In this document: positions 30,206-56,099 of the stretch, one piece after another
How the letters are laid out: every line of letters begins with the position of its first letter
Position numbering within the stretch: the stretch's first letter is position 1
NCBI RefSeq assembly: GCF_000336915.1
Contig: NZ_AOMD01000030.1
Coordinates: 62,509-126,508 of the forward strand
Direction: 5' to 3'
From: Halococcus saccharolyticus DSM 5350
GTDB taxonomy: Archaea; Halobacteriota; Halobacteria; Halobacteriales; Halococcaceae
DNA: 64,000 nucleotides
The notes under the pieces: generated by a model
What the model saw: only the letters and a program-made list of their open reading frames with translations
What the model was told of the DNA's origin: nothing
Database searches by the model: none
Made by a program: the position numbers and the translations under genes

Positions 30206-30868
30206 TTACCGTGCGAGCAACGCAGCCCTGAGCTCCTGGGGGCCTTCGACCACCGTATCCGCCGCCGCGAGATCGAGTTCTTTCGCGTCCGCGCCACGGT
30301 AGCCGATACAGGACATTCCGGCCGCCGTGGCCGACGCCACGCCGTGGGTCGAATCCTCGACCGCGACGCATTCCGCGGGATCGACGCCGAGTTCGTCGGC
30401 CGCGTGACGGTAGACGTGAGGTTCGGGCTTGCCGGGCCCGTCCACGTCCTCGGCCGAGACGGTCGCGTCGAAGCCCGTCAGTTCGAACCGATCGCACACG
30501 AGGTCGATCCATTCGGGCGGCGACGAGGAGACGATCGCGAGGCGCGTCCCCCGATCCCGGAGCGTGCCACAGAGGTCGCGAAAGCCGTCCATGAGCGCGG
30601 CGCGCTTGGTGTATACCTCGCGGGCGGCTTCTTCGTAGATCCCAAGGAACTCCTCGCGATCGACGCTCACGCCGTACTCGTCGTCGAGGTAGTCGTAGAC
30701 CTCGCGGTAGTTCATCCCGGTGATCTCGGCAGCCTGAAGGTCGGGAACGCCCGCTGCAGGGAAGATCCGTTCCTCCTCGATGTCGGCCCAGTAGCGCTCG
30801 GAATCAACGATCACGCCGTCCATGTCGAAAAGTACAGCTTTGCTAATACTCGCCTCGTCAGCAGCCAT
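30206..30868 (-). CDS. HAD-family phosphatase (phosphoglucomutase-like subfamily)
   Basis: 220 residues from ATG 30868 (MAADEASISKAVLFDMDGVIVDS). Catalytic pair Asp15 and Asp17 in FDMDGVIVDSE, the helical cap following, motif II Ser in AIVSSSPPEW, the Lys in PGKPEPHVYRHAADELG and the final acids CVAVEDSTHGV. Subfamily I HADs of this kind remove phosphate from small sugars or isomerise beta-glucose 1-phosphate. The substrate cannot be told from sequence. It is the last core gene before the integrated element; the integrase stop is 50 nt away. Confidence 0.85.
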   Translation of the reverse strand: MAADEASISKAVLFDMDGVIVDSERYWADIEEERIFPAAGVPDLQAAEITGMNYREVYDYLDDEYGVSVDREEFLGIYEEAAREVYTKRAALMDGFRDLCGTLRDRGTRLAIVSSSPPEWIDLVCDRFELTGFDATVSAEDVDGPGKPEPHVYRHAADELGVDPAECVAVEDSTHGVASATAAGMSCIGYRGADAKELDLAAADTVVEGPQELRAALLAR

Positions 30869-30917
30869 TATTCGGTCGAGCACCCAAGTCAGGAAGTAGA
30901 TTCTGGTTCGGGTCTGC

Positions 30918-32045
30918 TCACACTCTGAGCTTGTAGATGTTTTCGAGATACAGGTCCGCTATGTCCTCGTAGTAGGTGTGGATGTAGCTGTCAATCGGGC
31001 CGGGGTCGTCAGTCGTCGCGCCACCCGGTTTGTCACCACGCATATACCGAACGAGGTCACGATTTAGGTCCTGCTCGACACGCCAATACGTCGTAAACCT
31101 GTGCCGGCCATAGTGACTCGTCACACCCCGGTGACGCTCCGTCTCGGCATATTCTGGATGGAAAGCACGTTTCCATGCCCGATTGATTGATTGTTTCCGG
31201 AGCTTGCCGTTTGCTTGTTTCGAGAGAAACAGCCACTGCGAACCGCTATCCGGGCGAACGAGTAGATACCGAACCAGTACGTGTCGTGTCTCGTCGTCAA
31301 GCGGCAGCAGACGTGGCCGCTGTGACTTGTTTCCTTCTCGCTCATGTGGGATATACAGTACGTTCTCACGGCCATCGAGCATCGGGTTCGTTCCCATGTC
31401 TGGGTAGTTACGTAGCACCTCACTGTTTTGGATAGAGAGGTCGGCCAACTGGATATTGCACAGTTCGGTTGCTCTCGCCCCGATCTTCAGCTGTAGAACT
31501 ATCACTGCGCGGTCACGGAGGTGCGCAACCCCGTCGAGCACGTCGCGGAGTTCGTCCATTGGGATACGGGGTGGTTCCTTCGTCTCCGGTGCGGTAAATG
31601 AAACCTTCGAGCGGGCGAGTTGTATCGGGTTGTAGTCCTGTGGATGGGGAAACGCCGGGTCATCCTGCCAGTACGTGTATGCGACGTTCAGCTTCCGGAG
31701 CTTTGCTTTCACCGTTTCTGGGTGGTTCGATTTCCCCTCCTCCGCGAGTTCATATCGGATGAACCGCTTCACGTGTTCCTCATTCGGGCAAGCAGGATGC
31801 CGGCCTTCGCTTTCCATATGCTCACGCCATTCCTGAAACGTGGCGTCGTATCGCTTCCGCGTACTTTCCACGAGTTCGCGTGCGTCAAGCACTTCGGACG
31901 CAACGATTGCGAACGGGTCTATCTCGGTGCTTTCGAAGGTAGTGGCGTGCGCTGCGAGAGGGTCCACATCGCGGTCGAACGCTTCTGCGAGTGCTCTTCG
32001 CTGTGCATCTGTCCGATTCTCCATCGTCTCGGATGTGTCGCTCAT
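30918..32045 (-). CDS. Tyrosine recombinase (integrase)
   Basis: 375 residues from ATG 32045. An N-terminal core-binding (SAM-like) domain (about 58-145, TRKRYDATFQEWREHM...) and a catalytic domain (about 160-375). Catalytic residues visible: Arg191 (GARATELCN), a beta-hairpin Lys near 240 (EGNKSQRPRLLPL), the HxxR box at 311-314 (SHYGRHRF) and the Tyr in SYIHTYYEDI (354-359; exact nucleophile not decided). It catalyses site-specific integration/excision of the element. Its start overlaps the stop of the upstream helper by 4 nt (ATGA), which makes it the last gene of a four-gene operon. Confidence 0.92.
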   Translation of the reverse strand: MSDTSETMENRTDAQRRALAEAFDRDVDPLAAHATTFESTEIDPFAIVASEVLDARELVESTRKRYDATFQEWREHMESEGRHPACPNEEHVKRFIRYELAEEGKSNHPETVKAKLRKLNVAYTYWQDDPAFPHPQDYNPIQLARSKVSFTAPETKEPPRIPMDELRDVLDGVAHLRDRAVIVLQLKIGARATELCNIQLADLSIQNSEVLRNYPDMGTNPMLDGRENVLYIPHEREGNKSQRPRLLPLDDETRHVLVRYLLVRPDSGSQWLFLSKQANGKLRKQSINRAWKRAFHPEYAETERHRGVTSHYGRHRFTTYWRVEQDLNRDLVRYMRGDKPGGATTDDPGPIDSYIHTYYEDIADLYLENIYKLRV

Positions 32046-32521
32046 GTGCTCCCTCCTGTTGGTTTGCCGCGTATTTTTTCGGCCCAAACCTTGCTGGCCG
32101 CGTCGTACTCCGCGGCAGCCATCAGAACTGGATGATAGGTGTGGGGGTGGTCTGTGTGCCACTGTAGCCAACGGTAGAAATCCTCGATTCGCACCCAATA
32201 CGGAGTATATGCCGACCACAACGCGAGCTGGTCCAGTAGGCTCTCAAACCACGCGTTCACGTCTTCCGGAGTGGCAAGGGCGTGATGACGGCCTCGGTCG
32301 TCCATGTGTGCCTTCCAACGGCGCTCGACAAGCCGCGTGTCCTTCTTGAACTTGTCAGAGCTTCCCCGCTCCCACAGGTGGGTTTCGAGGTATTCGTCCC
32401 ATACATCACGGCCGTCGTAGGCGGCCGCGTGCTGGTAGAAACGATAACGATCCGGCACCTCGTCAAGCGTCTTGTAGACACCCATGCGATCGTGTGGGTC
32501 TGTGGATTTGCTTTTCGCCAC
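32042..32521 (-). CDS. Stand-alone core-binding (SAM-like) domain protein of the integrase operon
   Basis: 159 residues from a GTG at 32521, directly abutting the upstream gene's TAA. There is no catalytic domain. The segment RLVERRWKAHMDDRGRHHA and the later EDFYRWLQWHTD...HPVLMAAAEYDAA parallel, in order and spacing, the integrase's own YDATFQEWREHMESEGRHPA and AYTYWQDDPAFPHPQDYNPIQLA. It therefore looks like a duplicate of the integrase DNA-arm domain made as a separate protein. It probably helps the integrase bind arm-type sites or controls direction. Alternative: a decayed integrase remnant, but intact frame and coupled starts argue against decay. Confidence 0.75.
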   Translation of the reverse strand: MAKSKSTDPHDRMGVYKTLDEVPDRYRFYQHAAAYDGRDVWDEYLETHLWERGSSDKFKKDTRLVERRWKAHMDDRGRHHALATPEDVNAWFESLLDQLALWSAYTPYWVRIEDFYRWLQWHTDHPHTYHPVLMAAAEYDAASKVWAEKIRGKPTGGST

Positions 32522-32971
32522 TTACATCACTTCCCTACTACCGACGTTCGTGGGGTAGTATTGGTCGTCTTCGACGCGGAGCGCGTCATCTTCTAAGTCC
32601 TCGATGTGTCGGTTTACTCGTTCAGGAGCAGTATCTACCACCCTTTGAACTATCTGACCGAACGAAGTGCCTGGGTTCTGCTCGACGTAGCGCCGGACGG
32701 CAGCACGCTCGCCACGATGCACCTGTTCTTCGAGTTCGGCGACCCGTTCGCGGGTCCGATCGAGTTCGTCCTTTAGGTCATTTCGCTGATCGCGAAGTTC
32801 TCGGTTTGTTTCGTCTGGCTCGACACTCGCATCGAACTTTTTCATCCCGGCTTCGACCATCGCCTGCATGAACTCGCTTACCGACATATCGAACTCATTG
32901 GCCCGCTGTTTCCAGCGGTCGTACTGGTCGCTCGTTGGGTAGGCCATAGCGGGCTGTGTGTCGACAGTCAT
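32522..32971 (-). CDS. Coiled-coil protein with C-terminal winged-helix-like region
   Basis: 149 residues. The N-terminal YPTSDQYDRWKQRANEFDMSVSEFMQAMVEAG resembles a ribbon-helix-helix-like segment often found in haloarchaeal plasmid proteins. A coiled coil of about 45 residues follows (NRELRDQRNDLKDELDRTRERVAELEEQ), then a small helix-turn-helix-like part (TSFGQIVQRVVDTAPERVNRHIEDLEDDALRVE). It is probably a DNA-binding dimer acting in regulation, excision or partition. The start overlaps the upstream stop by 4 nt; its own stop touches the next GTG. Confidence 0.75.
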   Translation of the reverse strand: MTVDTQPAMAYPTSDQYDRWKQRANEFDMSVSEFMQAMVEAGMKKFDASVEPDETNRELRDQRNDLKDELDRTRERVAELEEQVHRGERAAVRRYVEQNPGTSFGQIVQRVVDTAPERVNRHIEDLEDDALRVEDDQYYPTNVGSREVM

Positions 32972-33591
32972 TCGCTGTCACTCTCCGGTATTTCTTGCTT
33001 ATCTGGCGGCTGAAGCGGTATCTCGTTGGGATCAATTACTCCGTTCTCTATCAGTCGTCGTAGCTCATCGAATTCGAGTGATTCGCCACGCTCGTATTTC
33101 CCGATCGCATTTGTCACAAGCCGTCCCTCCGTATCTATCTCGAGCACGATTTCGTTCAACTCTGTATCTCCATCCATTCGATCCAATCCACGTTCGATAC
33201 CCTCCATGAGCAATCCGCGGAATCCTTCGCTGCTGAAGTCGGGATTAGGCCACCGATACTGCTGATACAGCAATCCTATGAGCGCGACACATGCGTCATG
33301 TATCTCTGGATCCGCATGAAGCGTGCCCGCGGCTTTCTCCCTGCGATTATACCGTCGATCTTCTTCGGTCTCTTTGACAAATGTCTGGTCTCGTTCGGAA
33401 GGCGACCAATTGTCGAAGAGGACGCGAAAGTCAAGCAACGCGTTTCGGACACGCTGGCGGAGTCGACGACGGTACTGACGATCATGCTTTTGATCGCTCG
33501 AACCGGTCAGCAAGTCCCAATCTCTGTCCGTCAAAATCCCGCGACTGCGATCTCTATCGTAGGCTTCTGCTGAATCGGCATCTTCCGTCAC
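32968..33591 (-). CDS. Haloarchaeal element-associated protein, first gene of the integrase operon
   Basis: 207 residues from a GTG at 33591 (MTEDADSAEAYDRDRSRGIL). The N-terminal part SRGILTDRDWDLLTGSSDQ...RQYRRRLRQRVRNALLDFRVLF is a motif I recall from many haloarchaeal provirus and plasmid proteins. The rest is acidic with no clear fold. The longer open frame to 33684 crosses the divergent promoter and is rejected. Box A AATATACTT is about 31 nt upstream. Its partner genes suggest a regulator or structural factor for the integrase operon; no activity can be stated. Confidence 0.7.
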   Translation of the reverse strand: MTEDADSAEAYDRDRSRGILTDRDWDLLTGSSDQKHDRQYRRRLRQRVRNALLDFRVLFDNWSPSERDQTFVKETEEDRRYNRREKAAGTLHADPEIHDACVALIGLLYQQYRWPNPDFSSEGFRGLLMEGIERGLDRMDGDTELNEIVLEIDTEGRLVTNAIGKYERGESLEFDELRRLIENGVIDPNEIPLQPPDKQEIPESDSE

Positions 33592-33616
33592 ATACAAACG
33601 TAACGGAGTCACGCTC

Positions 33617-33627
33617 AAGTATATTCC
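33617..33627. promoter_or_regulatory. Shared, bidirectional box A of the integrase and primase operons
   Basis: AAGTATATTCC is nearly symmetric. Read rightward its centre is 26 nt before the ATG of the RHH gene; read leftward it is about 31 nt before the GTG at 33591. One TATA element thus can serve both arms of the element, the 56-nt gap having room for little else. Confidence 0.55.
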
Positions 33628-33647
33628 GGTGAATAGGTCCACCTGCA

Positions 33648-33809
33648 ATGGCACCGACCGAAAGGACCCAGAGGCCGCGGACAACCATCACGGTCCAGCG
33701 AGACCTGTACAAGCGGCTCGAAGGGCTAAAGCCGTACAAAAGTATGAGCTACAATGAATTCCTCTCGGAGCTGGCAGATACGTACGAACAAGGAGTTCAG
33801 GATCAATGA
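33648..33809 (+). CDS. Ribbon-helix-helix DNA-binding protein
   Basis: 53 residues, MAPTERTQRPRTTITVQRDL.... The beta-strand TTITVQRDLYKRLEGLKPYKSMSYNEFLSELAD is a typical short ribbon-helix-helix (MetJ/CopG-type) fold: strand, helix LYKRLEGL, turn and helix YNEFLSEL. It likely binds the shared promoter and autoregulates both divergent operons. First gene of a five-gene chain, overlapping the next start by 4 nt. Box A spacing predicts leaderless translation. Confidence 0.8.
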   Translation: MAPTERTQRPRTTITVQRDLYKRLEGLKPYKSMSYNEFLSELADTYEQGVQDQ

Positions 33810-33946
33810 ATCGAAAGAACGTCACCGACCCCCACGGGTATCAAGCGAGTGGGTCGGCAACGTCCTACAGCACGAGTCACACGCTCGGTCTCGTCCGGGC
33901 AAGGAATTTGGCTCACCCGGTCGACCGGAGGTGGACCCGTGACTGA
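33806..33946 (+). CDS. Small hypothetical protein (46 aa)
   Basis: 46 residues from an ATG overlapping the RHH stop (ATGA): MNRKNVTDPHGYQASGSATS.... It is polar and basic, with an arginine-rich C-terminal third (RARNLAHPVDRRWTRD). No fold or motif is recognised. Its support is only the exact ATGA coupling upstream and the overlap with the next GTG downstream, which is the arrangement of the whole operon. Confidence 0.45.
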   Translation: MNRKNVTDPHGYQASGSATSYSTSHTLGLVRARNLAHPVDRRWTRD

Positions 33947-34151
33947 CGCTTGTCACCCGAGGCACAAATCCGTTTCGCGGACGGCTCGACTCGCTCGTGA
34001 CTCCGACAACGACCCACTCGGAGTAGCGATGTTTCTCGCCACGGTCGATCTCCGCGCGCTCGAACTCGACCTCACAGGCGTCGACCGGGTGCAGTACACG
34101 GTTACGGACGGACACCTCATGCTCGACACCGTCACGGAGGGGATTCGATGA
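33939..34151 (+). CDS. Small hypothetical protein (70 aa)
   Basis: 70 residues from a GTG at 33939 (MTDACHPRHKSVSRTARLAR). The second half, MFLATVDLRALELDLTGVDR and YTVTDGHLMLDTV, looks like an alternating beta structure with a hydrophobic core. No family recognised. It overlaps the gene before it by 8 nt and the gene after it by 4 nt, consistent with translational coupling in the operon. Confidence 0.5.
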   Translation: MTDACHPRHKSVSRTARLARDSDNDPLGVAMFLATVDLRALELDLTGVDRVQYTVTDGHLMLDTVTEGIR

Positions 34152-34306
34152 GCCGCGCCTTCTACTGTCCGGATTGTAAAACCATCCACGTCGTCGATCA
34201 CCGAGGCCGCCAGAAACCGGAAGACGATCAAGAAGCGGATATAGACTTCATCTGTGGTCGCTCCGTGGAACTCATCCGCTCGCTCCGGTTGAGAGGGAAA
34301 AGATGA
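34148..34306 (+). CDS. Small Cys-containing protein (52 aa), possible zinc-binding
   Basis: 52 residues: MSRAFYCPDCKTIHVVDHRG and ending ELIRSLRLRGKR. One CxxC (CPDC) with a nearby His and a third Cys (DFICGRS) gives a potential C-C-H-C metal site in a tiny fold. The basic tail fits nucleic-acid binding. ATGA overlaps with both neighbours. It directly precedes the primase/helicase gene and may be its accessory factor. Confidence 0.55.
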   Translation: MSRAFYCPDCKTIHVVDHRGRQKPEDDQEADIDFICGRSVELIRSLRLRGKR

Positions 34307-36360
34307 CTGCATACGAGTACGCTCCGGAACTCAAGGAACGAGACCGATGGATCTGCTGGCGGTACGAGAAGCAAGACGGCGAACGGACGGACTCGCCGAT
34401 AGCTCCGTACGACAGCACAACGTACGCGAGCGTTTCTGCCCCGGAGACATGGGGAAGTTACGAGGTAACGGTCAAGTATCATAATAGTAGTGACACGAAC
34501 ACCGATGGAGTCGCATACGTTCTCGGCCCCGACGATCCCGTTGCAATTGCGGATCTCCTGGGCTGCACTGATCCCGAGTCGCCAAACACCGAGAAATGGG
34601 CGCTGGACATAATGATGGATCTCCCCAGCTACACCGAGGTACTACCGACGGAGTCGGATCTTCGTGTGTTTGTGCTCGGATCTGTGCCCGAAGGTCGCAG
34701 TCGTCAGGAGCAGGAGCGAACCCTTGACGCCCTTGACGGCTGTTCGAGGGGTCCCGCAGTCGAATTATACGACGAGGGTGAATATGTACGGTTCACGGGT
34801 AATTCTCTCGAAGCCGTCCCTGAATCGGTCGAAGAGCACCAAGGTGGCCTCAACGAAGTATACGCCGAATACATTGCTGGAAATAGTGAGAACAAAATAA
34901 CAGGTACCTCAACGCAGGGCAGCACGGGAGTCCCCACCCAACTCACCCCGAAAAACGTCGTGAAGGCCGCAGGTAAAAACCCGAACGAAAACGACCTTGG
35001 CAACCTCTCCGATCGAATGAAGGCAGGGGCGATATGGAAGCTGATCGAACGCTCCGACAGCATTCACCTCTGCGTACGTCGTGACAACGCCGCTCTGTTG
35101 GCGTTCGACGACGGTATCTGGAAGCCTGAAGCCAAACGTACACTCCGGCACGCCGCACGTCGGGCTCTGGGTTCTATTCACTACGGGAAACATATCGTCT
35201 CCGAATTGGAAGAGCAAGCGAAGAGCGATCCTGACTCTGAGGTCAAGCCCGAGGATCTCGGCCTCGAAACTAGCTACGTAGCTGTCGAGAATGGCTTGCT
35301 TGATCTCGAAGCGGCTGCCAACGGAGACGAGAATGCAGTCCGCGAACTCCGTCCTGAGAACTATGCGCTCACTCGATTGCCGGTTGAGTATGATCCGACC
35401 GCCGAATATGACGAGTGGGCTGATCTCGTCGAGGAGTGGGCGGAGGATGGCAAAGTCGACGCGCTGCAGGAGTATGTCGGATACTGCCTGCATATCGGTG
35501 ATCTGCCGATCCATCGCGCCTTGATGCTTGTTGGCTCTGGGGCGAACGGAAAGGGAACGTTCCTGGCGGTCGTTCGCGCATTACTCGGTCCGGAAAATAC
35601 GTCGTCAGTCGAACTACAGACGCTCGCCAGCGAACGAGACGCAGTAGCTGACATGTATGGTTCACTCGCTAACATCGATGATGACCTCTCTGCCCGAAAA
35701 CTCAACGCCGGGCTAGGAACGTTCAAGAAGCTCGTCGCTGGGGATCGTGTGCGGGCACGGAGACTCTACGAGGATGCGTTCGAGTACAAAGCCATGGGGA
35801 AGCACCTCTATGCCGCGAACGAGGTCCCCCAAGTCGACGTTCCCGACGATGACGAAGCGTTTTGGCGGCGGTGGCTCCTCATCGAATTCCCGAACCATTA
35901 TCCACCAAGTGAGCGGGACCCCGAACTCCGTGACCGTCTCAGCGAATCGGAGAGCCTTTCGGGTGTCCTCAACTGGGCGATTGAGGGATGGAATCGGCTA
36001 CGTGATCAGGAGTATTTCACCAATGAGGAACAGCTCGCTCACGACAAACGCCGGCGCTGGCAAGCATGGGGCGACTCCGTCGACGAGTTCATCAGCGAGT
36101 GTGTCGAGAACGATCCCAACGCCGAGCGGCTCACGACCGGTGAAGCGCACCAGCAATACCAAGCATGGTGCCGCGAGAATAACAGGAACACAGTGGGACA
36201 GCGGCAGTTCACGAACACGCTCAAGAACGAAGACGTTGGGTACGGAAAGCACCGGATCGACGGGACCTCCACCCTTGGCTATGACGAACTCGGACTATCC
36301 GACATCGGCACAGAACTCGACGGTGGGACCGAGGACTCAAACCGAGGGATGAGCTTCTAA
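34303..36360 (+). CDS. P4/D5-type primase-helicase with degenerate PrimPol domain
   Basis: 685 residues. N-terminal PrimPol (AEP)-like region (1-170), D5 N-terminal domain (about 245-400) and SF3 helicase with Walker A GSGANGKGT (411-419), DD sequence of Walker B in LANIDDDLSA, and a C-terminal winged-helix region (from about 600). In haloarchaeal relatives the primase motifs read VDLDDC and SPSGTGLH; here the equivalent segments are ADLLGC (83-88) and LPTESDLR (114-121). The second and third acids and the catalytic His are replaced, so priming is probably lost and the protein may act as a replicative helicase only. Last gene of the RHH operon (4-nt overlap). Codon use is lower in GC than the flanking core genes. 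Confidence 0.88.
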   Translation: MTAYEYAPELKERDRWICWRYEKQDGERTDSPIAPYDSTTYASVSAPETWGSYEVTVKYHNSSDTNTDGVAYVLGPDDPVAIADLLGCTDPESPNTEKWALDIMMDLPSYTEVLPTESDLRVFVLGSVPEGRSRQEQERTLDALDGCSRGPAVELYDEGEYVRFTGNSLEAVPESVEEHQGGLNEVYAEYIAGNSENKITGTSTQGSTGVPTQLTPKNVVKAAGKNPNENDLGNLSDRMKAGAIWKLIERSDSIHLCVRRDNAALLAFDDGIWKPEAKRTLRHAARRALGSIHYGKHIVSELEEQAKSDPDSEVKPEDLGLETSYVAVENGLLDLEAAANGDENAVRELRPENYALTRLPVEYDPTAEYDEWADLVEEWAEDGKVDALQEYVGYCLHIGDLPIHRALMLVGSGANGKGTFLAVVRALLGPENTSSVELQTLASERDAVADMYGSLANIDDDLSARKLNAGLGTFKKLVAGDRVRARRLYEDAFEYKAMGKHLYAANEVPQVDVPDDDEAFWRRWLLIEFPNHYPPSERDPELRDRLSESESLSGVLNWAIEGWNRLRDQEYFTNEEQLAHDKRRRWQAWGDSVDEFISECVENDPNAERLTTGEAHQQYQAWCRENNRNTVGQRQFTNTLKNEDVGYGKHRIDGTSTLGYDELGLSDIGTELDGGTEDSNRGMSF

Positions 36361-36823
36361 GAGCCTTCCCGGTTCGCTTCTGTTACGCTGGTTCACGGCG
36401 ACGACGCGTCATCGTCAGCTATGATAACTCGATTCCCTGACAGATATGGTGCTTGTGGTGCATGGGCGGCGGAAATTTGCGATGAAGGTGATGTGGATGC
36501 AGGAGAGTACGCAGAAAAGATGCGGAAGGGATGCACCACATCCACCACACCAGTCTAGAAAATCACATCAGTGCCAGCATGAATGCTCGCAATGCAGTCG
36601 AGAGCGCTCCACATCATCCATTCCCATCTGACGTGTCGGCCAACACTCACGGTCACGTTGAGGAGTTACGCTATTCGGACTAAGCTCTCGACGGGCTCGA
36701 AGTGCCTCGTCTCGAAACGTTTTCGACACAGGCCAGGTAGGTCCGTACACTATCGAGTGCGTGGAGGGTACTTCGGATCAGGAGTGGCGAGGGACTAAAG
36801 AAGGTCGCAGCCTATTTTCAAAT
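36361..36823. other. 463-nt gap after the primase operon, no gene
   Basis: No supportable coding region on either strand. It holds a 10-bp inverted repeat (TGTGGTGCAT 36454-36463, ATGCACCACA 36531-36540) with further CCAC/GTGG clusters to 36553. Such repeats next to a replication helicase could be an initiation or recombination site, but nothing in sequence proves it. Confidence 0.4.
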
Positions 36824-37180
36824 ATGTCTCAGCCGGCATCTATTCCGATTTCGGAAGCTATCGAGAGCGCCGTCGGCGCGAATGATCGAACGCGCCGCGA
36901 GGATATTCGCTACCTCCGCCATCACGTCTCTGACGAGGAGCTATTCGTAGAGGTCGGACTCCCTGGTGGAGCATCTGGTGGAGCCGAAAGCATGATTGGA
37001 TACTCGTCCGTAATCGCCAAGGGACTTCTCAAGAACTGTGCCGGCGACAGGACAGTCCATCTCGCGCTCGTACTCGCCGGTGACAGGCTCGCGCGTTTGA
37101 CCGTGACTCCCGAAAGCGCCGACCTCAACGATTCCGAAGCCTTCCGACAGCAGTGCACGCACTCTCTACGCGTGGATTGA
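36824..37180 (+). CDS. Hypothetical protein (118 aa)
   Basis: 118 residues from ATG 36824 (MSQPASIPISEAIESAVGAN). A helical N-terminus (TRREDIRYLRHHVSDEE) is followed by a Gly/Ala-rich segment and the strands VHLALVLAGDRLARLTVTPE. The start at 36824 is chosen over upstream codons because the sequence before it is not protein-like. No family recognised. It sits between the replication operon and the AT-rich block and has intermediate base composition. Confidence 0.6.
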   Translation: MSQPASIPISEAIESAVGANDRTRREDIRYLRHHVSDEELFVEVGLPGGASGGAESMIGYSSVIAKGLLKNCAGDRTVHLALVLAGDRLARLTVTPESADLNDSEAFRQQCTHSLRVD

Positions 37181-37858
37181 GCGGGCGGGTATACTGACCG
37201 CATTCTTTCGTGGATCTCGCGACCGGGTAGCTGGGGGTCGACCGGATTGATCCTGAGTGCTCGCAACCCCTTCGGGGGTCATCCTGCCGGTCCTTGTTAT
37301 TATCTAATGGTAACACCCATTATCTTGCATATGCTGCCAGCGCTTTCCCTACCGGCTCACCCCAAAGCTCCCGGATTCAAGAATGTTCACTCGTAGTGAA
37401 CAGCCGGATGTCGGTTCTCTTTATATACTCTGGAATTCACACTCTCTTATTCACTTTCTATATTCCTCGCTCACTTTGCACCGACCATCGCCAATCATCT
37501 ACGGGCAATGTATCCCTGATAATTGCCGGTGAAACCAAGTGACTACAGCCTCACAACTAGCCAAGCTTAGCAGCATATTGGAACAGGATAGTCGCCGGAG
37601 GTGGACTTTACAGACCTCCAGTGGCCGAATTAGGGACAAGACCGGAACCCTTCACCAGCGGAGGTATCCGGTAGTGGGCAGTTTTCTCTCGTCGCACATC
37701 ACTCTTTTCCCGCTTTCTGCTGCCCGTGAGGCGCAACCGTAATCAGAGGACCGTCAGCGGCCTACAGTAGCCTGTAATACGCTTTCCACCTCGACAACGT
37801 TGAGAGACCACGCAGAAATAGCTACCGACGCTCATGCCTCATTCTGAGGGCATTGGGC
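37181..37858. other. 678-nt AT-rich gap with an operator-like palindrome, no supported gene
   Basis: Composition shifts to AT-rich after about 37290. TGTTCACT-CGT-AGTGAACA (37384-37402) is a perfect 8-bp palindrome with a 3-nt centre, of the type bound by dimeric regulators. A TATA-like TTTATATAC follows at about 37419. A 67-codon GTG frame at 37539-37742 is the only candidate gene and is weak. The convergent radical SAM gene ends at 37859. Confidence 0.5.
37266..37294 (+). terminator. UUCG-tetraloop hairpin and AT-rich run
   Basis: ACCCC TTCG GGGGT (37266-37279) forms a five-pair stem with an extra-stable UUCG loop. An AT-rich run (TTGTTATTATC) follows from 37294, so it may end the 36824-37180 transcript. 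Confidence 0.5.
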
Positions 37859-39079
37859 CTACGATGGGAGCGATGGATCAGCGATGTTCTCAGGTGAAAC
37901 CGCAGTACGTTGTTCTTTTAGCGACTTTGCTTGACTCTCACCCACTGATTTGATTACCTGCTTGTCTGGCCAAACATGAACATCGACATCGTGCTTTGCA
38001 CCGAGTTCTTCTGCCCACTGCATCTGTTGTATGGAATATTTGACCCAATACTCTCGATCGTTACTGATCTTTTTAAGTTCATCAGCCAGATGGTCTTTTC
38101 CGGCTTCCTCAGCTGCCTTTATGGTCATCTGAAAATTCCCTCCTCTTGGATTAATCGGTTCTTGGAACACAACTTCAGCATCAAGATTGGCAAATTCCTC
38201 TATGAGATTGTCAAATTCTTCATATGTTTGTGTTGGGTATGTAGGTGACATAGAAACATATACTGGAATACCTGCCTGACTTATTTTCCGCAAGGCTTCT
38301 AATCTGGCTGAAGGTGGGGGTGCTCCCGGCTCAATAGCTTTCACCTGCTTATCATCAAGACAGGGGATAGACGAGCCTACACGAATTAATTCTCCATCTC
38401 GCTTCTCGCTCAGTTCAATACCGCGCTGAAATACGTCTATGTCCCGTGCGACAGCAGGACTACGCGTAAGAATCCGGACCGGGAATCCTCTGCTGATAAG
38501 TTCAATGATGCAACCCCGTGTTATTTGCGCTGCACGACGATCTTGGTAACAATCTGTTCCACTTGAGATCATCACTACTCCTCGTCCCCGGTTGGTTGTT
38601 TTCCATTTTTGTTTTCGGCCTAATTTTCGAGCAAGCCGTTCAGGCAAGTCATCTCTATACAACAAATAGGAACCCCAGTCAGTCTGCCCATCTGATACAG
38701 ACGCTTGCTCAGAAAGCATATCCTGGCGTGCAGTAATGTTTGGCGTACTTGGGACGTAGCAAAATTTGCAACCATGACTACATCCTGTGGCAACGTTAAT
38801 CACGTAGTCGCACAGGCTTTTGTGGTAAAGTCCTGACTCACTAAGAACGACTTTAGCGGGGTCTGTAGTATGCTCAACACCGTTTTTGGTCGTACTCTCC
38901 TGATCAATTGCACATTCCCAACAAAGAATATCTCCTTGATAGGTTGCACTAAACCGTTCTGCGATCTCGTTTCCACATGAAGCACATTTGTGACCAGTAG
39001 CAAGAACGTCTATTCGTTCTAGTGGGTCCCCTTTTTTACGGCTCTTTTCACGGATAGCGTCCAATGTGGATTTATTCAA
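37859..39079 (-). CDS. Radical SAM protein with N-terminal four-Cys zinc ribbon (copy 1 of TcmP module)
   Basis: 406 residues. Start is a TTG at 39079; the in-frame stop lies six codons upstream, no ATG precedes the conserved part, and a GAGAAGG Shine-Dalgarno-like element is 8 nt before it. Zinc ribbon Cys32, Cys35, Cys53, Cys56 (CASCGNE...LCWEC). Radical SAM cluster Cys100, Cys104, Cys107 (CSHGCKFC). Further conserved blocks are YVINVATG, SSGTDCYQDRRAAQITRG and VRILTRSPAVARDIDVF, placing it near the SplB/Rv2578c-type branch. Strongly similar to the gene at 40345-41772, with TcmP between them. It probably modifies a nucleic acid, nucleotide or TcmP-linked substrate by a 5'-deoxyadenosyl radical. 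AT-rich codon use marks it as acquired. Confidence 0.85.
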   Translation of the reverse strand: MNKSTLDAIREKSRKKGDPLERIDVLATGHKCASCGNEIAERFSATYQGDILCWECAIDQESTTKNGVEHTTDPAKVVLSESGLYHKSLCDYVINVATGCSHGCKFCYVPSTPNITARQDMLSEQASVSDGQTDWGSYLLYRDDLPERLARKLGRKQKWKTTNRGRGVVMISSGTDCYQDRRAAQITRGCIIELISRGFPVRILTRSPAVARDIDVFQRGIELSEKRDGELIRVGSSIPCLDDKQVKAIEPGAPPPSARLEALRKISQAGIPVYVSMSPTYPTQTYEEFDNLIEEFANLDAEVVFQEPINPRGGNFQMTIKAAEEAGKDHLADELKKISNDREYWVKYSIQQMQWAEELGAKHDVDVHVWPDKQVIKSVGESQAKSLKEQRTAVSPENIADPSLPS

Positions 39080-39149
39080 GTATTTGACCTTCTCTTATTT
39101 CCAAATTCATGTCCTTGCCCAATGAACTTTGCCATTGATAACCAGAGTG

Positions 39150-40160
39150 CTAAAAGCTATCGAGAGAAGATTGGCCACTGCCATCCTCATCATCGGGAAG
39201 GTACTGATCCATAGTAGCTCTATCGCCTCGAATAACCTCCAACATTTCGTCCACATCTGCCCCATCAACCGCCTCCACGAAATCCCTCACATAGTCAACT
39301 GCATCAATGTAACCGCTTCCTCGATTTGTTTCACGGGTTCCGTATATCATGTCATATTCATAGTTCCGTCCTCCGCTATCCACGTTTGCCACCACCTTTT
39401 TTTCCTTCTCAACACCTGTTAACCTCTCACAATATTTTTCTCGAAGTGTTTGTTTGTTCTTCTCCTCCGTATCCCACATGTTTCCGCCATAGAACCGATT
39501 CATTGCTGACTCGCTGTCTGTGTGATGGGCGGTGCGAACGATATTTGATGTAGGGAAGTTGATCAAAAGATCTCCGGTAGGTGTGGGAGCTACTTTCTCA
39601 ATTCCATCGTCCCATTCAACGTCCAGCCCTTGATTATCAATAAATGTGAAGTGGTTGAAACTAGGGCCATTCGGGTTTTCATACGCTATATCCCACATAT
39701 CATTCACGACCTCTCTCAGTTGCTCGTTGGCATCTCCTTCATACACTTGATATGCCTCGGGTACAGTAACATCAACCATAGAATTTTCAAAAACTTCATC
39801 CAAGCGGCGTCTAAGTGCATCTGCCTTGTCCGGATCGTTCTCAATAAAATACATTTTAGTGAATGGCTCAGTAGCATTCTTTGCTGCAATAACTGGTGAT
39901 CCCAAGAAGCAGTCACCCTGATCACCATAGACAGAAACACCCGAGCCGGCTAATGCATCAATATAAAAGAAATCGTCCATATGTTGTGATATGACCTTTG
40001 TATACATGTTGGTGGTCGCTGCGTGGAGGATCAATTTTAGGGCTGACCAGGGCCCAAACTCATTGAATTGGTTTGGGGCTACGCCTTTCAACTCGTCAGC
40101 GTTGTCCCGTAGGTCTTCTACTCGATCTTTCACCCATTCTCTGCGGGGTACAGAAGGCAT
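39150..40160 (-). CDS. tcmP: TcmP-family protein (three-Cys-motif partner), Rossmann methyltransferase-like
   Basis: 336 residues from ATG 40160 (MPSVPRREWVKDRVEDLRDN); an upstream in-frame ATG at 40208 lies before the box A and is rejected. The family is named for always sitting beside a protein with a three-Cys (radical-SAM-like) motif. A class I methyltransferase-like fold is suggested by FFYIDALAGSG (64-74, motif I), MYFIENDPDKADALRRRL (motif II acid), YEGDANE (140-146) and FTFIDNQGLDVEW (171-183, motif IV). The GSPVIAAK and DLLINFPTSNIVRT stretches are typical of TcmP. Activity is unproven. Flanked on both sides by paralogous radical SAM genes in the same orientation. Confidence 0.85.
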   Translation of the reverse strand: MPSVPRREWVKDRVEDLRDNADELKGVAPNQFNEFGPWSALKLILHAATTNMYTKVISQHMDDFFYIDALAGSGVSVYGDQGDCFLGSPVIAAKNATEPFTKMYFIENDPDKADALRRRLDEVFENSMVDVTVPEAYQVYEGDANEQLREVVNDMWDIAYENPNGPSFNHFTFIDNQGLDVEWDDGIEKVAPTPTGDLLINFPTSNIVRTAHHTDSESAMNRFYGGNMWDTEEKNKQTLREKYCERLTGVEKEKKVVANVDSGGRNYEYDMIYGTRETNRGSGYIDAVDYVRDFVEAVDGADVDEMLEVIRGDRATMDQYLPDDEDGSGQSSLDSF

Positions 40161-40181
40161 AAACTGTTGTGACGAGCATAG

Positions 40182-40194
40182 AATAATATAATTT
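40182..40194 (-). promoter_or_regulatory. Box A of tcmP
   Basis: AAATTATATTATT on the minus strand is centred about 28 nt before ATG 40160. This predicts a leaderless mRNA and its own promoter, apart from the upstream radical SAM gene. Confidence 0.6.
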
Positions 40195-40344
40195 GGTGTA
40201 ATCTTCATGCTCTAAATAGTTGAATAAACCATAATGTCATTTGTCGAACTATCATATCACAACAGCCATCTTTGTCCCTTATGGACGTGCCAAATTATAT
40301 TCCCTAGACAATTCTGGCTCCACTCTTCTTTCAACAACCACAAT

Positions 40345-41772
40345 TCACCTGAGCTTTGAAGGTTTCACCAAGTGTTCAATCTCTGAATAATCATCAAAGA
40401 GAGGCGATTGTGCTGAACTTTTACCCGAAGCCGGTTCATCTCCAAGTGGCTCCGGGGAGATAGCTTGCCGCATTGCTGCCAATTGATCTCGTAAGGATCC
40501 ACTGGTAGCTTTCAGTAATTCTCGATCCGGCCATGAGTGGATTGGAGGCGCGTTCAGTCTTTGACCTTCTTTCTGAACTAAATTGAGATGTTTTAGACTA
40601 TACTCCACCCAATTTTGCGGATATTGAAGACGTTGAAATTCCTTCGCATGCTCTTCAAATCCACTGTTCTCAAGAGTTTCAACCATAATTTCAAAATTGG
40701 AGCCTCGAGGGTTGATTGGCTCATGAAAGACGACGCTGGGCTGTAGCGCTTTGAAACGAGTCAAGAGCTGGTGGATTTCTTTCTGGTTCATAGATGGATA
40801 TGTAGGTGACATAGATACATAGAGGGGAACTTTAGTACGGAGGCTATCTAGCATTTTCCATCGCTTTAGTGGAGGTGGCGCACCTGGTTCTAACGCCTTG
40901 ACCATGTCTTCGTTAAATGATGGAATTGACGATCCGATCGTAAGAGTATCGGAAAATTCTGAGAAAAGATCGGCATCCCTCGCTGCTATAGTGCTTCTAG
41001 TGAGTATTCTTGTTGGTATTTCTTTCGAGCATAGCTCACGTACAACTCCTCTAGTTATTTGAGCGGCTCGACGATCTTGATATGGGTCTGTTCCACTTGA
41101 AATCATAACTATGCCACGTCCTCGATCGGTCTTTCGCCAGTTTCCGAAATCGCTTTCCTCTAACTCCAAGCTCAGTCTTTCGGGGAGGTCATCTCGATAT
41201 AAGAGGTAGCTTCCCCACTCTCGTTGAAGATCGCTCACTTCTGCTTGGTTGTTCAGCATTTCTTCACGTGCTTTATACCCCGCAGTAGTTGGCACATAAC
41301 AGAACTTACAGCCATGTCTACACCCTGTCGCGACGTTTATGACGTAGTCACAGAGGCTTTTTTCATAGAGGTGGGATTGGCTGTATGTCGCCTTAGTTGG
41401 GTCTGTGTTGACGCGAACACCTGCTTCTGTTCCCTCTGTTTCTCTTGTAGCTGCACAGTCCCAGCAAAGAAGATTTCCTCGGGGATCAGCAGCGAAACGG
41501 TTTTTGATTTCTTTTCCACAATTTGCGCAAGGTGCGCCTATATTTGTGAGATCAATTCGTTCATTGTGTTCATATTCTGCCTGCCGTAGCTGGTCTAAAG
41601 TTGGGAAGTCTCCAAACTTTTCAAGGATTTTTCCTTCTCCATCCTCAATATAGTAGTCTCGATGGAAGCTATCATCGGCTTCCCAACTAGTTTCAAGACG
41701 CATTGTTCCCCTTGAACTGTAGCTTTGCACTTCAGCCCCAAAGTTCCCCGGTAACCACTGTGAAAGTGACAT
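40345..41772 (-). CDS. Radical SAM protein with N-terminal extension and four-Cys zinc ribbon (copy 2 of TcmP module)
   Basis: 475 residues. An extra N-terminal stretch of about 50-70 residues (RLETSWEADDSFHRDYYIED) has no counterpart in copy 1. Then zinc ribbon Cys82, Cys85, Cys103, Cys106 (CANCGKE...LCWDC) and the radical SAM site Cys151, Cys155, Cys158 (CRHGCKFC). Shared blocks with copy 1: LCDYVINVATG, EWGSYLLYRDDLPERL, SSGTDPYQDRRAAQITRG, RILTRS, YVSMSPTYPS, EPINPRG. It is the first gene of the module and has a TATA-like GATATAGC (41803-41810) 35 nt upstream. The two copies probably work on related targets or form a heterodimer with TcmP. Confidence 0.85.
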   Translation of the reverse strand: MSLSQWLPGNFGAEVQSYSSRGTMRLETSWEADDSFHRDYYIEDGEGKILEKFGDFPTLDQLRQAEYEHNERIDLTNIGAPCANCGKEIKNRFAADPRGNLLCWDCAATRETEGTEAGVRVNTDPTKATYSQSHLYEKSLCDYVINVATGCRHGCKFCYVPTTAGYKAREEMLNNQAEVSDLQREWGSYLLYRDDLPERLSLELEESDFGNWRKTDRGRGIVMISSGTDPYQDRRAAQITRGVVRELCSKEIPTRILTRSTIAARDADLFSEFSDTLTIGSSIPSFNEDMVKALEPGAPPPLKRWKMLDSLRTKVPLYVSMSPTYPSMNQKEIHQLLTRFKALQPSVVFHEPINPRGSNFEIMVETLENSGFEEHAKEFQRLQYPQNWVEYSLKHLNLVQKEGQRLNAPPIHSWPDRELLKATSGSLRDQLAAMRQAISPEPLGDEPASGKSSAQSPLFDDYSEIEHLVKPSKLR

Positions 41773-42101
41773 AGCATCATTGAAGACACAATTCCCAGCA
41801 GGAGCTATATCCCCTGTTTAGGTTTAATCAGAGTTTATGTCAGGACCATGTGTGGACACATTCTAGCCCCGCTGGTATTGTAGTCAAGGCTGGCACGCGT
41901 TTTGGAAGTTTAACCAATATGACTGCAGACAGAAATTTGTCACATCGCCCGATTCTCAGATGAGCAAATTCACTAATACATTTCAGCTTCTCATGTCGAA
42001 CAGCACTGCGTCCATGAACGCGCTACTCGCAGCCCCGGCAAAGCGCTTCCCGTTCGTCCCCGTACGAAGGTTTACGGCCGAGGCCGAAACCACTCCGGAT
42101 C
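41773..42101. other. 329-nt boundary gap, AT-rich to GC-rich, no gene
   Basis: The first 200 nt are AT-rich like the TcmP block. From about 42000 the sequence returns to core composition, so the right edge of the foreign DNA lies here. A TTTACGG box (42070-42076) about 30 nt before ATG 42102 is the likely promoter of the next gene. I found no direct repeat of the left end of the element. Confidence 0.5.
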
Positions 42102-42839
42102 ATGTCCGACGGCATTCGGGTGTTCGCCGGCGACTGCACGACGACCTTCGCGGGCGACCCACCCCGCGAGCAGCGCGGCGATGTCGTGGTGGTGATCAAA
42201 CCCGACGACACGGTGCTGGTCCACGACTGCGACGGCTACCAACCCGTGGCGTGGCTCACCCGCCCCGAGATGCTCGCCTACGACGGCACAAGTACGGGGG
42301 AGTTTTCGCTGGTCGCCATCGACGGCGATTCGCGGCTCCGGGTCGTCGCCAACGATCGGTACGGACTCGCACGCTACCCCGCCTCCGTCGCCGGCGCGCC
42401 GGTCGGGACCTGCCCCGACTGCGATGGCGCGCTCGTCCGCGCGGACGGCGCGGTGACGTGTCTCGACTGCGAGGCGCGCTACGGCCTGCCGGCGGGTGCG
42501 GACGTGCTTGACGACCGCTGCGAGGCGTGTGGTCTCCCGACGATGCGCGCCGAGCGCGGGCGCGCATTCACGCTCTGTATCGATCGGGAGTGCGAGTCAC
42601 TCGACGACGAAGTGAAAGACGCGTTCGACCGCGCGTGGGACTGCCCCGACTGCGACGGCGATCTCCGGGTAATCCGTCAGGGCGGGCTGCTCGTCGGCTG
42701 TGACGAGTATCCGGACTGCGAGACCGCCTTCTCGTTTCCGACCGGCGTCGTCGACGGTGAGTGTGGCTGTGGGCTGCCAGAGTTCGTGACGGACTCCGGA
42801 CAGCGGTGTCTCGATGCGACCTGCGAGCGCGCCGGCTGA
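42102..42839 (+). CDS. NucS N-terminal-like (DUF91) and multi-zinc-ribbon protein
   Basis: 245 residues. The first 90 residues resemble the N-terminal dimerisation/DNA-binding part of NucS (RGDVVVVIKPDDTVLVHDCDGYQPVAWL). The nuclease core with its catalytic Asp/Glu is not present. The rest holds four Cys pairs arranged as C4 zinc ribbons: CPDCDGAL...CLDC (about 106-125), CEACGLP...CIDREC (about 142-165), CPDCDGDL...CDEYPDC (topoisomerase C4-type, about 183-206) and CGCGLPEF...CLDATC (about 223-241). A single-stranded or structured DNA binding role is inferred. It starts a plus-strand pair with endA (77 nt). Confidence 0.75.
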   Translation: MSDGIRVFAGDCTTTFAGDPPREQRGDVVVVIKPDDTVLVHDCDGYQPVAWLTRPEMLAYDGTSTGEFSLVAIDGDSRLRVVANDRYGLARYPASVAGAPVGTCPDCDGALVRADGAVTCLDCEARYGLPAGADVLDDRCEACGLPTMRAERGRAFTLCIDRECESLDDEVKDAFDRAWDCPDCDGDLRVIRQGGLLVGCDEYPDCETAFSFPTGVVDGECGCGLPEFVTDSGQRCLDATCERAG

Positions 42840-52019: not shown

Positions 52020-53072
52020 TTATTCGAGATCGGCCCCGACTGCTTCGTCGACGCTGCCGAACCCGTCGCGCTCCAGTAGTTCGAGCAGTCCACGATTGAT
52101 GTCGCGCGCGAGCGACGGCCCCTGGTAGATGAGTCCGGTGTAGAGCTGCACCAGCGACGCGCCCGCGCGGAGCTTCCGATAGGCTCCCGCCGCGCTCGAC
52201 ACGCCGCCAACGCCGATCACCGGCACGTCGGTCCGCTCGGCGACGAACGCAACGGCTCGCGTCGCGCGCGCTTCGAGCGGCTTTCCCGACAGACCTCCTT
52301 CCTCGACGCGGTTCGGGCTTCGGAGCGACGCTGGCCGCTCGGTCGTGGTGTTCGTCGCGATTACACCATCGAGGTCCATCTCGTCGACCACTGCAAGCGC
52401 TTCCTCGACGGCATCGTCGGTGAGGTCGGGCGAGAGCTTCACGAGAAGCGGATCCGCGCCAGCGTCTTGGAGGGTCCCGAAGATATGTTCGAGATGATCG
52501 CGGTGCTGGAGATCGCGGAGGCCTGGCGTGTTCGGGCTCGACACGTTTACCACGAAGTACTCGCCCGCGGCACAGCGTTCGTAGGAGTATCGGTAGTCCG
52601 CGGCGGCCGCTTCGAGCGGCGTCGCTTTCGACTTCCCGATGTTGACGCCGACTGGAACGTTCGCGCGTGCGCGCGAGAGCCGATCGCCGATGCGGTCGGC
52701 ACCGTGGTTGTTGAACCCCATCCGATTGACGAGCGCGCCGTCCTCGGCCAGCCGGAAGAGCCGCGGACGCGGGTTGCCGTCCTGCGCCTCGGCAGTGACA
52801 CCGCCGACCTCGACGTGGCCGAAGCCGAGCTGGCCGAGCGCGCGCGGGACCTCGGCGTTCTTGTCGAAGCCGGCGGCGACACCGATCGGATTCGGAAAGT
52901 CGAGGCCGAATTCGGTGGTGGTGAGCCGATCGTCGTCGACGGTGTAGCGCGCGGCGAGTGCCGGCTCGATCGGGGTGTGTTGGGCGGTTTCGAGCAGTCT
53001 GTGGACGGTGCTGTGTGCGGATTCGGCTGGCAGGCGGAACAACAGCGGCTTACAAATATCGTAGACTCCCAT
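52020..53072 (-). CDS. pyrD: Dihydroorotate dehydrogenase (quinone), class 2
   Basis: 350 residues. It oxidises dihydroorotate to orotate in pyrimidine synthesis, passing electrons to membrane quinone. FMN site NPIGVAAGFDKNAEV, GFGHVEVGGVTAEAQDGNPRPR, the class 2 catalytic Ser in VNVSSPNTPGLRDLQ, and the C-terminal IGVGGVSSAAGAYRKLRAGA phosphate site. The N-terminal YDICKPLLFRLPAESAHSTVH is the amphipathic membrane-associating segment of class 2 enzymes. It is 36 nt downstream of the 65-residue gene on the same strand. Confidence 0.95.
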   Translation of the reverse strand: MGVYDICKPLLFRLPAESAHSTVHRLLETAQHTPIEPALAARYTVDDDRLTTTEFGLDFPNPIGVAAGFDKNAEVPRALGQLGFGHVEVGGVTAEAQDGNPRPRLFRLAEDGALVNRMGFNNHGADRIGDRLSRARANVPVGVNIGKSKATPLEAAAADYRYSYERCAAGEYFVVNVSSPNTPGLRDLQHRDHLEHIFGTLQDAGADPLLVKLSPDLTDDAVEEALAVVDEMDLDGVIATNTTTERPASLRSPNRVEEGGLSGKPLEARATRAVAFVAERTDVPVIGVGGVSSAAGAYRKLRAGASLVQLYTGLIYQGPSLARDINRGLLELLERDGFGSVDEAVGADLE

Positions 53073-53108
53073 GGTGCGCTTCAGGTCGAGCAGTCGTCGG
53101 CCCGTGGT

Positions 53109-53306
53109 TTAGAAGTCGTGTTCGACCTCGTCCTGATCGGCCTTCTGGATGATGATCTTGTCCTCCCGCACCCGAACGAACACTTCGTCGCCGATCGCCA
53201 TCCCCGCGACCGCCAGTTCGTCCTCGTGGAGGTTGACATGGACGTTGTGGTATTCGCCGTTCTCGTCCTTCGCCCCGCTGGGACTGAGCTTCTTTTTCCG
53301 TACCAT
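53109..53306 (-). CDS. Conserved small haloarchaeal protein, AbrB/SpoVT-like swapped-hairpin look
   Basis: 65 residues, MVRKKKLSPSGAKDENGEYH.... The strand pattern YHNVHVNLHEDELAVAGMAIGDEVFVRVREDKIIIQKAD is typical of an AbrB/SpoVT swapped-hairpin domain: a basic head, then the beta-loop-helix GDEVFVRVRED. It is probably a dimeric DNA-binding regulator or antitoxin-like protein. A box A GTTAAGTG is about 32 nt before the ATG. It heads the pyrD transcript. Confidence 0.7.
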   Translation of the reverse strand: MVRKKKLSPSGAKDENGEYHNVHVNLHEDELAVAGMAIGDEVFVRVREDKIIIQKADQDEVEHDF

Positions 53307-53530
53307 CCCGGTGTCTTATCCCGTCGTTCGATACAGGATACACTTAACCTTACGGTCCGACGACCGCCGCTCACCTGTATAGACGGGTATCCGGATCGCG
53401 GCCGTATATACTGCTGGGCAGACCCACGACGAATGTCCGGAGATTTCGTCGTCGTGTGGTCGTTCATGTGAATCACGAAACGACTCACCCCAACGACACC
53501 CACTCCTACCGAAATCGACCCCCGTCGCAG

Positions 53531-53546
53531 GGATATATTTATAGTG
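53531..53546 (+). promoter_or_regulatory. Box A of the MC1 gene
   Basis: GGATATATTTATAGTG contains overlapping TATA-like cores about 43 nt before ATG 53583, giving a leader of about 17 nt. It is one of the clearest promoters in the window, as expected for an abundant protein. Confidence 0.55.
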
Positions 53547-53582
53547 TGCCATGTGCTGGTTCAGCACGGAGTGGCAAAAACC

Positions 53583-53897
53583 ATGGCACGAGATACGGAC
53601 GACAAGCGAAACTTCGCGCTCCGCGGGGACGGCGACGACGAAACGAGCGTTTTCTCGGGGCGCACACCACGCCAGGCGGCGCTCAAGGCTGCCCGGCGGC
53701 TTGACGCTGCCGACGGGGAGGAGAATGCGAGCCGCGAGGAGCTCCGGCTCCGAGAGAAGGGGACACACAAGGTCCACATCTACGAGGGATGGGCGTGGAA
53801 CGAGGAGGCCCCGTCGGACAAACCCGACTGGATGCCGGACACCATCACCGAGGCCAACGTCTCGAAACAGGGGATCGAACACCTCGAGGCGCTCTGA
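53583..53897 (+). CDS. MC1-family non-histone chromosomal protein
   Basis: 104 residues from ATG 53583. MARDTDDKRNFALRGDGDDET opens the family, followed by the MC1 core: VFSGRTPRQAALKAARRLD, ELRLREKGTHKVHIYEGWAW and NVSKQGIEHLEAL. MC1 binds and sharply bends DNA; family members are abundant nucleoid proteins in methanogens and haloarchaea. The haloarchaeal copy carries an acidic loop (ADGEENAS). It is directly upstream of the rRNA operon, and a strong box A precedes it. Confidence 0.9.
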   Translation: MARDTDDKRNFALRGDGDDETSVFSGRTPRQAALKAARRLDAADGEENASREELRLREKGTHKVHIYEGWAWNEEAPSDKPDWMPDTITEANVSKQGIEHLEAL

Positions 53898-54216
53898 GGG
53901 CGTCACGCGACGAAATCCGTACAGGTTTCAGCCGGCGGCACGAGAAGCGAGTGCGCGGCCAGACACCCGACTCGACCGGACGCGCACGCGTGGGATGAGG
54001 AGTCGGCCTCCAGCCGCGCGACACTGTCCTTCGATTTCTCACACGACATGCGAGCCCTCGCTCGCATTGACTACCGACTCTTGGGACGATCTCACCAGAT
54101 CCTCGGGAGTATCGTTTCGGTACCAGAAATTTTTTCTGGGAATCCGTCAGTGAACTCTCTCCGAGAACTGGTCGCAGGAACCGAGTCACCAGAGCACAAA
54201 GCGGCCTTGAGTCGAC
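53898..54216. other. 319-nt gap between the MC1 gene and the first rRNA promoter, no gene
   Basis: No supportable coding region. A run ATTTTTTCT near 54128-54136 could end MC1 transcription. Some promoter-like sequence before P1 cannot be excluded. Confidence 0.4.
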
Positions 54217-54226
54217 GGGTTTATCC
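54217..54226 (+). promoter_or_regulatory. rRNA operon promoter P1
   Basis: GGGTTTATCC box A; the predicted start lies about 26 nt on, near 54249, in GAATGGAATGCGAACGG. That start-region sequence is repeated almost exactly at P2. Confidence 0.55.

Positions 54227-54625: not shown

Positions 54626-56099
<1,474 letters not shown>

Follow-up and report, generated by a model that had tools for sequence, protein, structure and literature searches.

We analyzed a 64,000-nucleotide stretch of the Halococcus saccharolyticus DSM 5350 genome (the window) and focused on three adjacent minus-strand genes at positions 37859 to 41772. In order of coordinates, these encode a radical S-adenosylmethionine (SAM) protein that we termed rSAM-A, a TcmP-family protein, and a second radical SAM protein, rSAM-L; all of the open reading frames (ORFs) are intact. 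The rSAM-A (ORF 1) and rSAM-L (ORF 3) products matched the Pfam Radical_SAM domain (9.7e-16 and 8.3e-9, respectively) and are paralogues that share 49% identity, while ORF 2 scored 93.2 bits with the TcmP model TIGR04474 against a curated cutoff of 53 (E value of 2.5e-26). The true start of TcmP is likely position 40160, and that of rSAM-L is likely near 41703. The trio has a GC content of 45%, compared to 66% for the core genome and 56% for the remainder of the integrated element that carries it, and a comparison of 26 haloarchaeal loci found the module to be AT-richer than its flanks at 19 of them (mean GC difference of −6 points). An earlier note on this DNA, made from its letters alone, had described two paralogous radical SAM proteins with zinc ribbons and CxHGCKFC sites flanking TcmP on one strand, in AT-rich, foreign-looking DNA inside an integrated element. 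Motifs, Pfam, and TIGR04474 agree with the first part of that description, the GC values with the second, and an integrase, a primase, att sites, and an unoccupied site in a genome of the same genus with the third. Taken together, the data below suggest that the system places a chemical mark on a selected nucleic acid, perhaps as a means of fighting viruses or other mobile DNA.

TcmP is exchanged beside a constant radical SAM pair

We searched 392 Halobacteria genomes independently with an external TcmP model and with an rSAM profile built here. Every TcmP gene recovered (24/24) adjoined a member of this rSAM family, 21 of the 24 adjoined two copies, and 45 of 50 full-length rSAM genes adjoined TcmP. 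Among 146 cyanobacterial genomes, all 26 full-length TcmP genes adjoined a radical SAM-type gene, which belonged to DUF5131 in 21 cases and to the spore photoproduct lyase (SPL)-like family of the window in 5. No full-length TcmP without an rSAM-type neighbor occurred in the genomes searched (0/50). Gene order and orientation of the module varied among loci, which implies that the linkage between TcmP and rSAM survives rearrangement. The three genes form a recurring unit, and the co-occurrence on which the earlier note had made its reading depend is borne out. Its statement that the usual partner of TcmP is one small Gp37/Gp68 protein holds for most cyanobacterial TcmP genes but not for Halobacteria, where the partner was the long SPL-like family in all 24 cases.

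A tree of the rSAM family, made by a quick method with SH-aLRT support, placed the haloarchaeal proteins in clades L (26 rows), A, and S, with supports of 100, 94, and 99, respectively. Proteins of clades L and A have the zinc ribbon, and those of clade S do not. Every locus with two rSAM genes combined one L copy with either one A or one S copy; the window locus is of the L and A type. Judged from this tree, the paired copies derive from separate old clades, and the two genes would not be redundant.

Seven Haloarcula loci revealed which part of the module changes. Between these loci, rSAM-S is 87 to 96% identical and rSAM-L is 85 to 95% identical, while the adjacent TcmP proteins come from different subfamilies that are only 21 to 33% identical to one another and are sometimes encoded in inverted orientation. 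At the DNA level, identity of 85 to 88% runs across the ∼2.5-kb rSAM pair and ends at the rSAM-S/TcmP junction. Within one TcmP subfamily, identity was 68 to 98%, which argues for replacement as opposed to fast evolution. An independent second case was found in the L and A group, where HArc-gm2 and genome G058 share rSAM proteins of 81 to 83% identity and TcmP proteins of ∼33% identity. These comparisons show that the rSAM pair is the constant core of the module and that TcmP is its exchanged part.

The finding that rSAM genes occur without TcmP, yet TcmP was never seen without an rSAM-type gene, is what one would expect if TcmP were harmful on its own. In such a toxin-antitoxin-like pair, one component would be harmful without the other. 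However, two large oxygen-sensitive metalloenzymes would make an odd antitoxin, and the fold indicates modification chemistry. As for pseudogenes in relatives, a point raised in the earlier note, a broken member was seen in one relative only: in G058 (L125:6747-8682), a DDE transposase (7327-8181) interrupts TcmP, and both rSAM genes have stayed open. This speaks against TcmP as an antidote to the rSAM proteins. We consider a toxin-antitoxin pair highly unlikely and prefer a module that modifies nucleic acid.

Relatives of single components were also observed. Phage records yielded two weak Synechococcus TcmP matches, the rSAM protein of Acidianus two-tailed virus, and nothing else. The latter, from a virus of hyperthermophilic archaea, is a distant homologue (ORF301, L177:3908-4813; 33% identical), and no TcmP gene is annotated beside it. 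On an IMG/VR viral contig (L095:320-1411), an S-like rSAM gene lies near the contig end, with no TcmP in the available part. Short ORFs (∼190 to 210 amino acids) at Haloarcula loci L131 (G016) and L132 (G050) and on plasmid pNG400 (L173:3093-3602) are similar to rSAM-L in its C-terminal half only and do not have the Cys cluster; the pNG400 copy is near insertion sequence transposases. These ORFs are either degenerate copies or members of a distinct domain family.

The carrying element and its surroundings

The trio is carried by an 11.2-kb integrated element (30839 to 41991) that is bounded by imperfect 18-bp att repeats (Table 1). In genome G323, from the same genus, both flanks are joined exactly at the att core and the 11.2-kb element is absent. 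Because this site is unoccupied and the integrase, the primase, and the trio all lie between the repeats, the trio is cargo of a mobile element, as the earlier note had suggested. The element inserts in the conserved 5′ part of a HAD hydrolase gene, at catalytic motif I, with positions 41992 to 42110 involved, and the gene receives a replacement 5′ end from the inserted element. In other genomes, TcmP-rSAM modules were found on plasmids as well as on integrative elements. An Rfam scan of the region from 28 to 48 kb of the window found no RNA. A second lower-GC stretch (53001 to 61000) holds tRNA-Ala (TGC) and tRNA-Cys and is probably the rRNA operon rather than a foreign island.

Table 1. Positions of the trio, its predicted functional sites, and the carrying element in the window
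Feature	Position	Strand	Basis
rSAM-A, haloarchaeal A clade radical SAM protein, 406 amino acids, TTG start	37859..39079	-	ORF, Pfam, NCBIfam, tree
[4Fe-4S] site CSHGCKFC of rSAM-A, residues 100-107	38759..38782	-	Sequence motif
Zinc ribbon C-x2-C-x17-C-x2-C of rSAM-A, DksA/TraR-type, residues 32-56	38912..38986	-	Motif; TraR, C4_traR matches
TcmP-family RlmJ-like methyltransferase (predicted), DNQG subtype, 352 amino acids	39150..40208	-	TIGR04474 2.5e-26; PADLOC PDC-M41A 5.7e-17; model; PDB RlmJ 4.6e-7
TcmP Asp191 (motif IV), counterpart of essential RlmJ Asp164; 44/44	39636..39638	-	Alignment
TcmP Ser104 (GSP motif), counterpart of SAM-binding RlmJ Ser100; 44/44	39897..39899	-	Alignment
TcmP Lys58, counterpart of essential RlmJ Lys18; K in 43/44	40035..40037	-	Alignment
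rSAM-L, haloarchaeal L clade radical SAM protein, 475 amino acids	40345..41772	-	ORF, Pfam, NCBIfam, tree
[4Fe-4S] site CRHGCKFC of rSAM-L, residues 151-158	41299..41322	-	Sequence motif
Zinc ribbon C-x2-C-x17-C-x2-C of rSAM-L, DksA/TraR-type, residues 82-106	41455..41529	-	Motif
HAD hydrolase gene	30206-30883	-	Insertion target
att core, left end of element (CATGTCGAAAAGTACAGC), within 5′ coding end of HAD hydrolase gene	30821..30838	.	Matches empty site of G323 (L169 866-883)
Tyrosine recombinase (integrase) of element	30918..32219	-	Pfam Phage_integrase 4.3e-12
P4/D5-type primase-helicase of element	34303..36360	+	TIGR01613 1e-47; Pfam DUF5906/D5_N
att core, right end of element (CATGTCGAACAGCACTGC), displaced HAD gene 5′ end adjoining	41992..42009	.	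Comparison with empty site

Around other haloarchaeal modules, BrxC (L113), Orf5/HEC-06 (L103), and a type IIG restriction-modification (RM)-like protein (L112) adjoin the module, while Cas3d (L115) and a Ppl-like ATPase (L108) lie near it; BREX adjoins a Nostoc plasmid pair. Judged from these neighbors and from a TcmP match to the PADLOC candidate PDC-M41A, the defense role that the earlier note had suggested is plausible. The same surroundings bear on an anti-restriction role, in which the module would modify the nucleic acid of its own element and shield that element from host restriction or defense. Carriage on integrative elements and plasmids, the lack of a nuclease gene in the conserved unit, and the nearby RM and BREX genes would all fit such self-marking. 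However, chromosomal loci beside defense genes also recur, which a defense cargo explains at least as well, and an enzyme that marks DNA does not obviously need a radical partner. We regard this anti-restriction role as quite unlikely and keep a wider conflict role as the preferred reading. On a Natribaculum longum plasmid, the trio (L005:10271-15281) adjoins an unannotated AAA-ATPase and a downstream protein, and these two resemble McrB/McrC. Elsewhere, the passages of PMC12445080 that deal with TcmP SMa2243 place it with the Hna helicase gene in a putative transcription unit, and those passages report no test of it.

Predicted chemistry and proposed function

Both rSAM proteins have the CxxxCxxC site and domain fold of the radical SAM superfamily, and the three Cys and the His of this site are invariant in 55/55 relatives. 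The x17 spacing of the N-terminal ribbons of both proteins, together with weak TraR matches, points to the DksA/TraR type. The rSAM-A structure model (predicted local distance difference test [pLDDT] of 94.4, predicted template modeling score [pTM] of 0.93) had SPL as its closest Protein Data Bank (PDB) fold (1.5e-6); a sequence search of the PDB with the rSAM profile gave nothing at 1e-3.

This fold match, and the fact that haloarchaea and cyanobacteria are both sun-exposed, would suit an SPL-like repair of UV damage to DNA. However, both rSAM proteins scored under the cutoffs of the SPL models (26.0 and 19.1 against 27 for PF20903; 16 and 15 against 400 for TIGR04070). The hydrogen-donor Cys140 of SPL lies ∼43 residues after the cluster. 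By sequence spacing as opposed to superposition, there is no Cys in the corresponding stretch of rSAM-A (residues 108 to 176, 69 residues) or rSAM-L (residues 159 to 247, 89 residues). The patchy, mobile distribution and the swapped partner are also unlike a housekeeping gene for repair. We judged UV repair to be unlikely in the extreme.

The TcmP model (pLDDT of 87.7, pTM of 0.86) was nearest, among solved structures, to the RNA methyltransferases RlmJ (4.6e-7) and Trm1, while a direct PDB search with the TcmP sequence returned chance matches only. Residues were mapped by adding RlmJ to the TcmP alignment (MAFFT --add) and by fold similarity. In RlmJ, SAM is held by S100, E118, and D143, and mutagenesis found K18 and D164 to be essential at the target adenine (PMC3814359). 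RlmJ K18, S100, E118, D143, and D164 align with TcmP K58, S104, E123, D159, and D191, respectively, and the E123 position is Glu or Asp in 44/44 aligned members. TcmP combines a Rossmann methyltransferase fold with counterparts of all five RlmJ residues but falls outside the RlmJ family proper, which has a DPPY motif IV and a Tyr4/His6 motif X tail. The SAM pocket that the earlier note had treated as decisive appears to be kept, and its suggestion of a methyltransferase-like role directed at nucleic acid is reasonable given the predicted RlmJ-like SAM and base pocket. From the alignment and the model, we infer that TcmP is an RlmJ-like enzyme acting on nucleic acid, likeliest at adenine, with methylation putative.

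We likewise infer the substrate of TcmP, the chemistry of the module, and its role in defense. Our preferred explanation, to which we give an even chance, is that the trio is one mobile nucleic acid modification module with a role in conflict, in which the radical core stays constant and the RlmJ-like target subunit can be interchanged. TcmP, as a SAM-dependent methyltransferase, would recognize a particular nucleic acid, probably adenine in RNA, and would methylate the recognized base or at least flip this base out. The L enzyme and its A or S partner, probably as a heterodimer, would then perform radical chemistry at or beside that position, and a swap of TcmP would retarget the unchanged radical core. 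As cargo of integrative elements and plasmids, the module would most likely function in conflicts involving viruses or rival elements, possibly by damage or recoding of the RNA or DNA of the invader or the host upon infection or by self-marking. A more specific form of this proposal, which we hold as tentative and somewhat doubtful, is a two-step base hypermodification system with an immune or counter-immune role. TcmP would choose and methylate the site, the rSAM pair would make a product not yet described, and specificity would be altered via a one-gene swap.

Several observations weigh against this explanation. Template modeling scores of TcmP with RlmJ and Trm1 are modest (0.38 to 0.44), and an hhalign profile comparison between TcmP and RlmJ recovered the motif I segment only. 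Motif IV is DNQG in the window TcmP as opposed to DPPY, and RlmJ Tyr4, His6, and Trp195 have no clear TcmP match (Tyr4 and His6 align to gaps); thus, TcmP could bind without methylating. Some rSAM genes of the S clade occur apart from TcmP (5 of the 50 full-length rSAM genes are placed in this way), so that rSAM may also act independently. Matched control regions on the same contigs also held CRISPR and other defense matches (counted as PADLOC family tallies only), and enrichment of defense genes near the module is suggestive only. The literature searched gave no experiment on this rSAM family or on TcmP, and searches on DUF5131, PDC-M41, radical SAM with defense, and the PA0069 and Rv2578c families gave no functional study.

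Motif IV is also central to the idea that TcmP has the methyltransferase fold but no catalysis, i.e., that TcmP is an exchangeable adaptor for base flipping or target recognition beside an rSAM pair that does all of the chemistry. Across the TcmP family, this motif is DNQG here and DNQE, DNER, DPKG, DENG, or DPFG elsewhere (DNQE, DPFG, and DNER in the Haloarcula subfamilies), with the Asp alone invariant. A TcmP that is exchanged while the rSAM pair stays constant is also what one would expect of a specificity subunit. However, the SAM-binding residues and the K18/D164 catalytic pair are kept in 43 to 44 of 44 diverse members, which would be unusual for a dead enzyme. We consider a dead TcmP unlikely and retain the putatively methylating TcmP of our proposal.

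TcmP-rSAM pairs are distributed across both archaea and bacteria, and the literature searched gave no function for them. The constancy of the rSAM pair and the exchange of the methyltransferase provide a first testable model of the mechanism, and the conservation of the RlmJ-type active site points to a modified adenine as the thing to assay. If our proposal is true, this would be a radical SAM nucleic acid modification system with interchangeable specificity that is carried by mobile elements. The exchange of TcmP, the obligate two-clade rSAM pairing, and the constant presence of an rSAM-type gene beside TcmP in the genomes searched go beyond the earlier note.

Comparison with known systems

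The radical SAM mobile pair A/B, PA0069, and Rv2578c are the nearest named rSAM families (4e-30 for PA0069, 1.4e-22 for Rv2578c, and 7.9e-15 for mobile pair B), and the mobile pair is alike by name in being two rSAM proteins on mobile DNA. However, the window proteins scored far under the family cutoffs (105 against 360 bits for PA0069, 80 against 430 for Rv2578c, and 55 against 410 for mobile pair B). SPL, the best fold match for rSAM-A, acts on nucleic acid and likewise has CxxxCxxC followed by Tyr. In contrast to SPL, the rSAM proteins described here are nearly always paired with a methyltransferase and have an added zinc ribbon.

RlmJ, the 23S rRNA m6A2030 methyltransferase, and Trm1 are the best folds for TcmP, in which the SAM- and base-contact residues of RlmJ are conserved. 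Unlike RlmJ, TcmP has DNQG, DPFG, or DPKG in place of DPPY, does not match Tyr4/His6, has an obligate rSAM partner, and is mobile. The window TcmP also matched three models of the PADLOC system PDC-M41A (5.7e-17, 2.1e-12, and 1.7e-4), whereas neither rSAM protein gave a convincing match to any PADLOC model. PDC-M41A is a defense candidate on which we found no paper.

The closest parallel is found in the TcmP/DUF5131 (Gp37-Gp68, PF07505) pairs, in which TcmP always adjoins a three-Cys radical SAM-type protein. The window partners differ in belonging to a long SPL-like family (no match to PF07505 at an E value of 0.1) and in being two nonequivalent paralogues with zinc ribbons, and in the haloarchaeal module TcmP is exchanged between loci. 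Taken together, we believe that the module represents a novel version of the known TcmP/three-Cys pairs. Its main new facts are that the rSAM pair always draws on two clades, that TcmP conserves an RlmJ-type pocket, and that TcmP is exchanged beside a constant pair.

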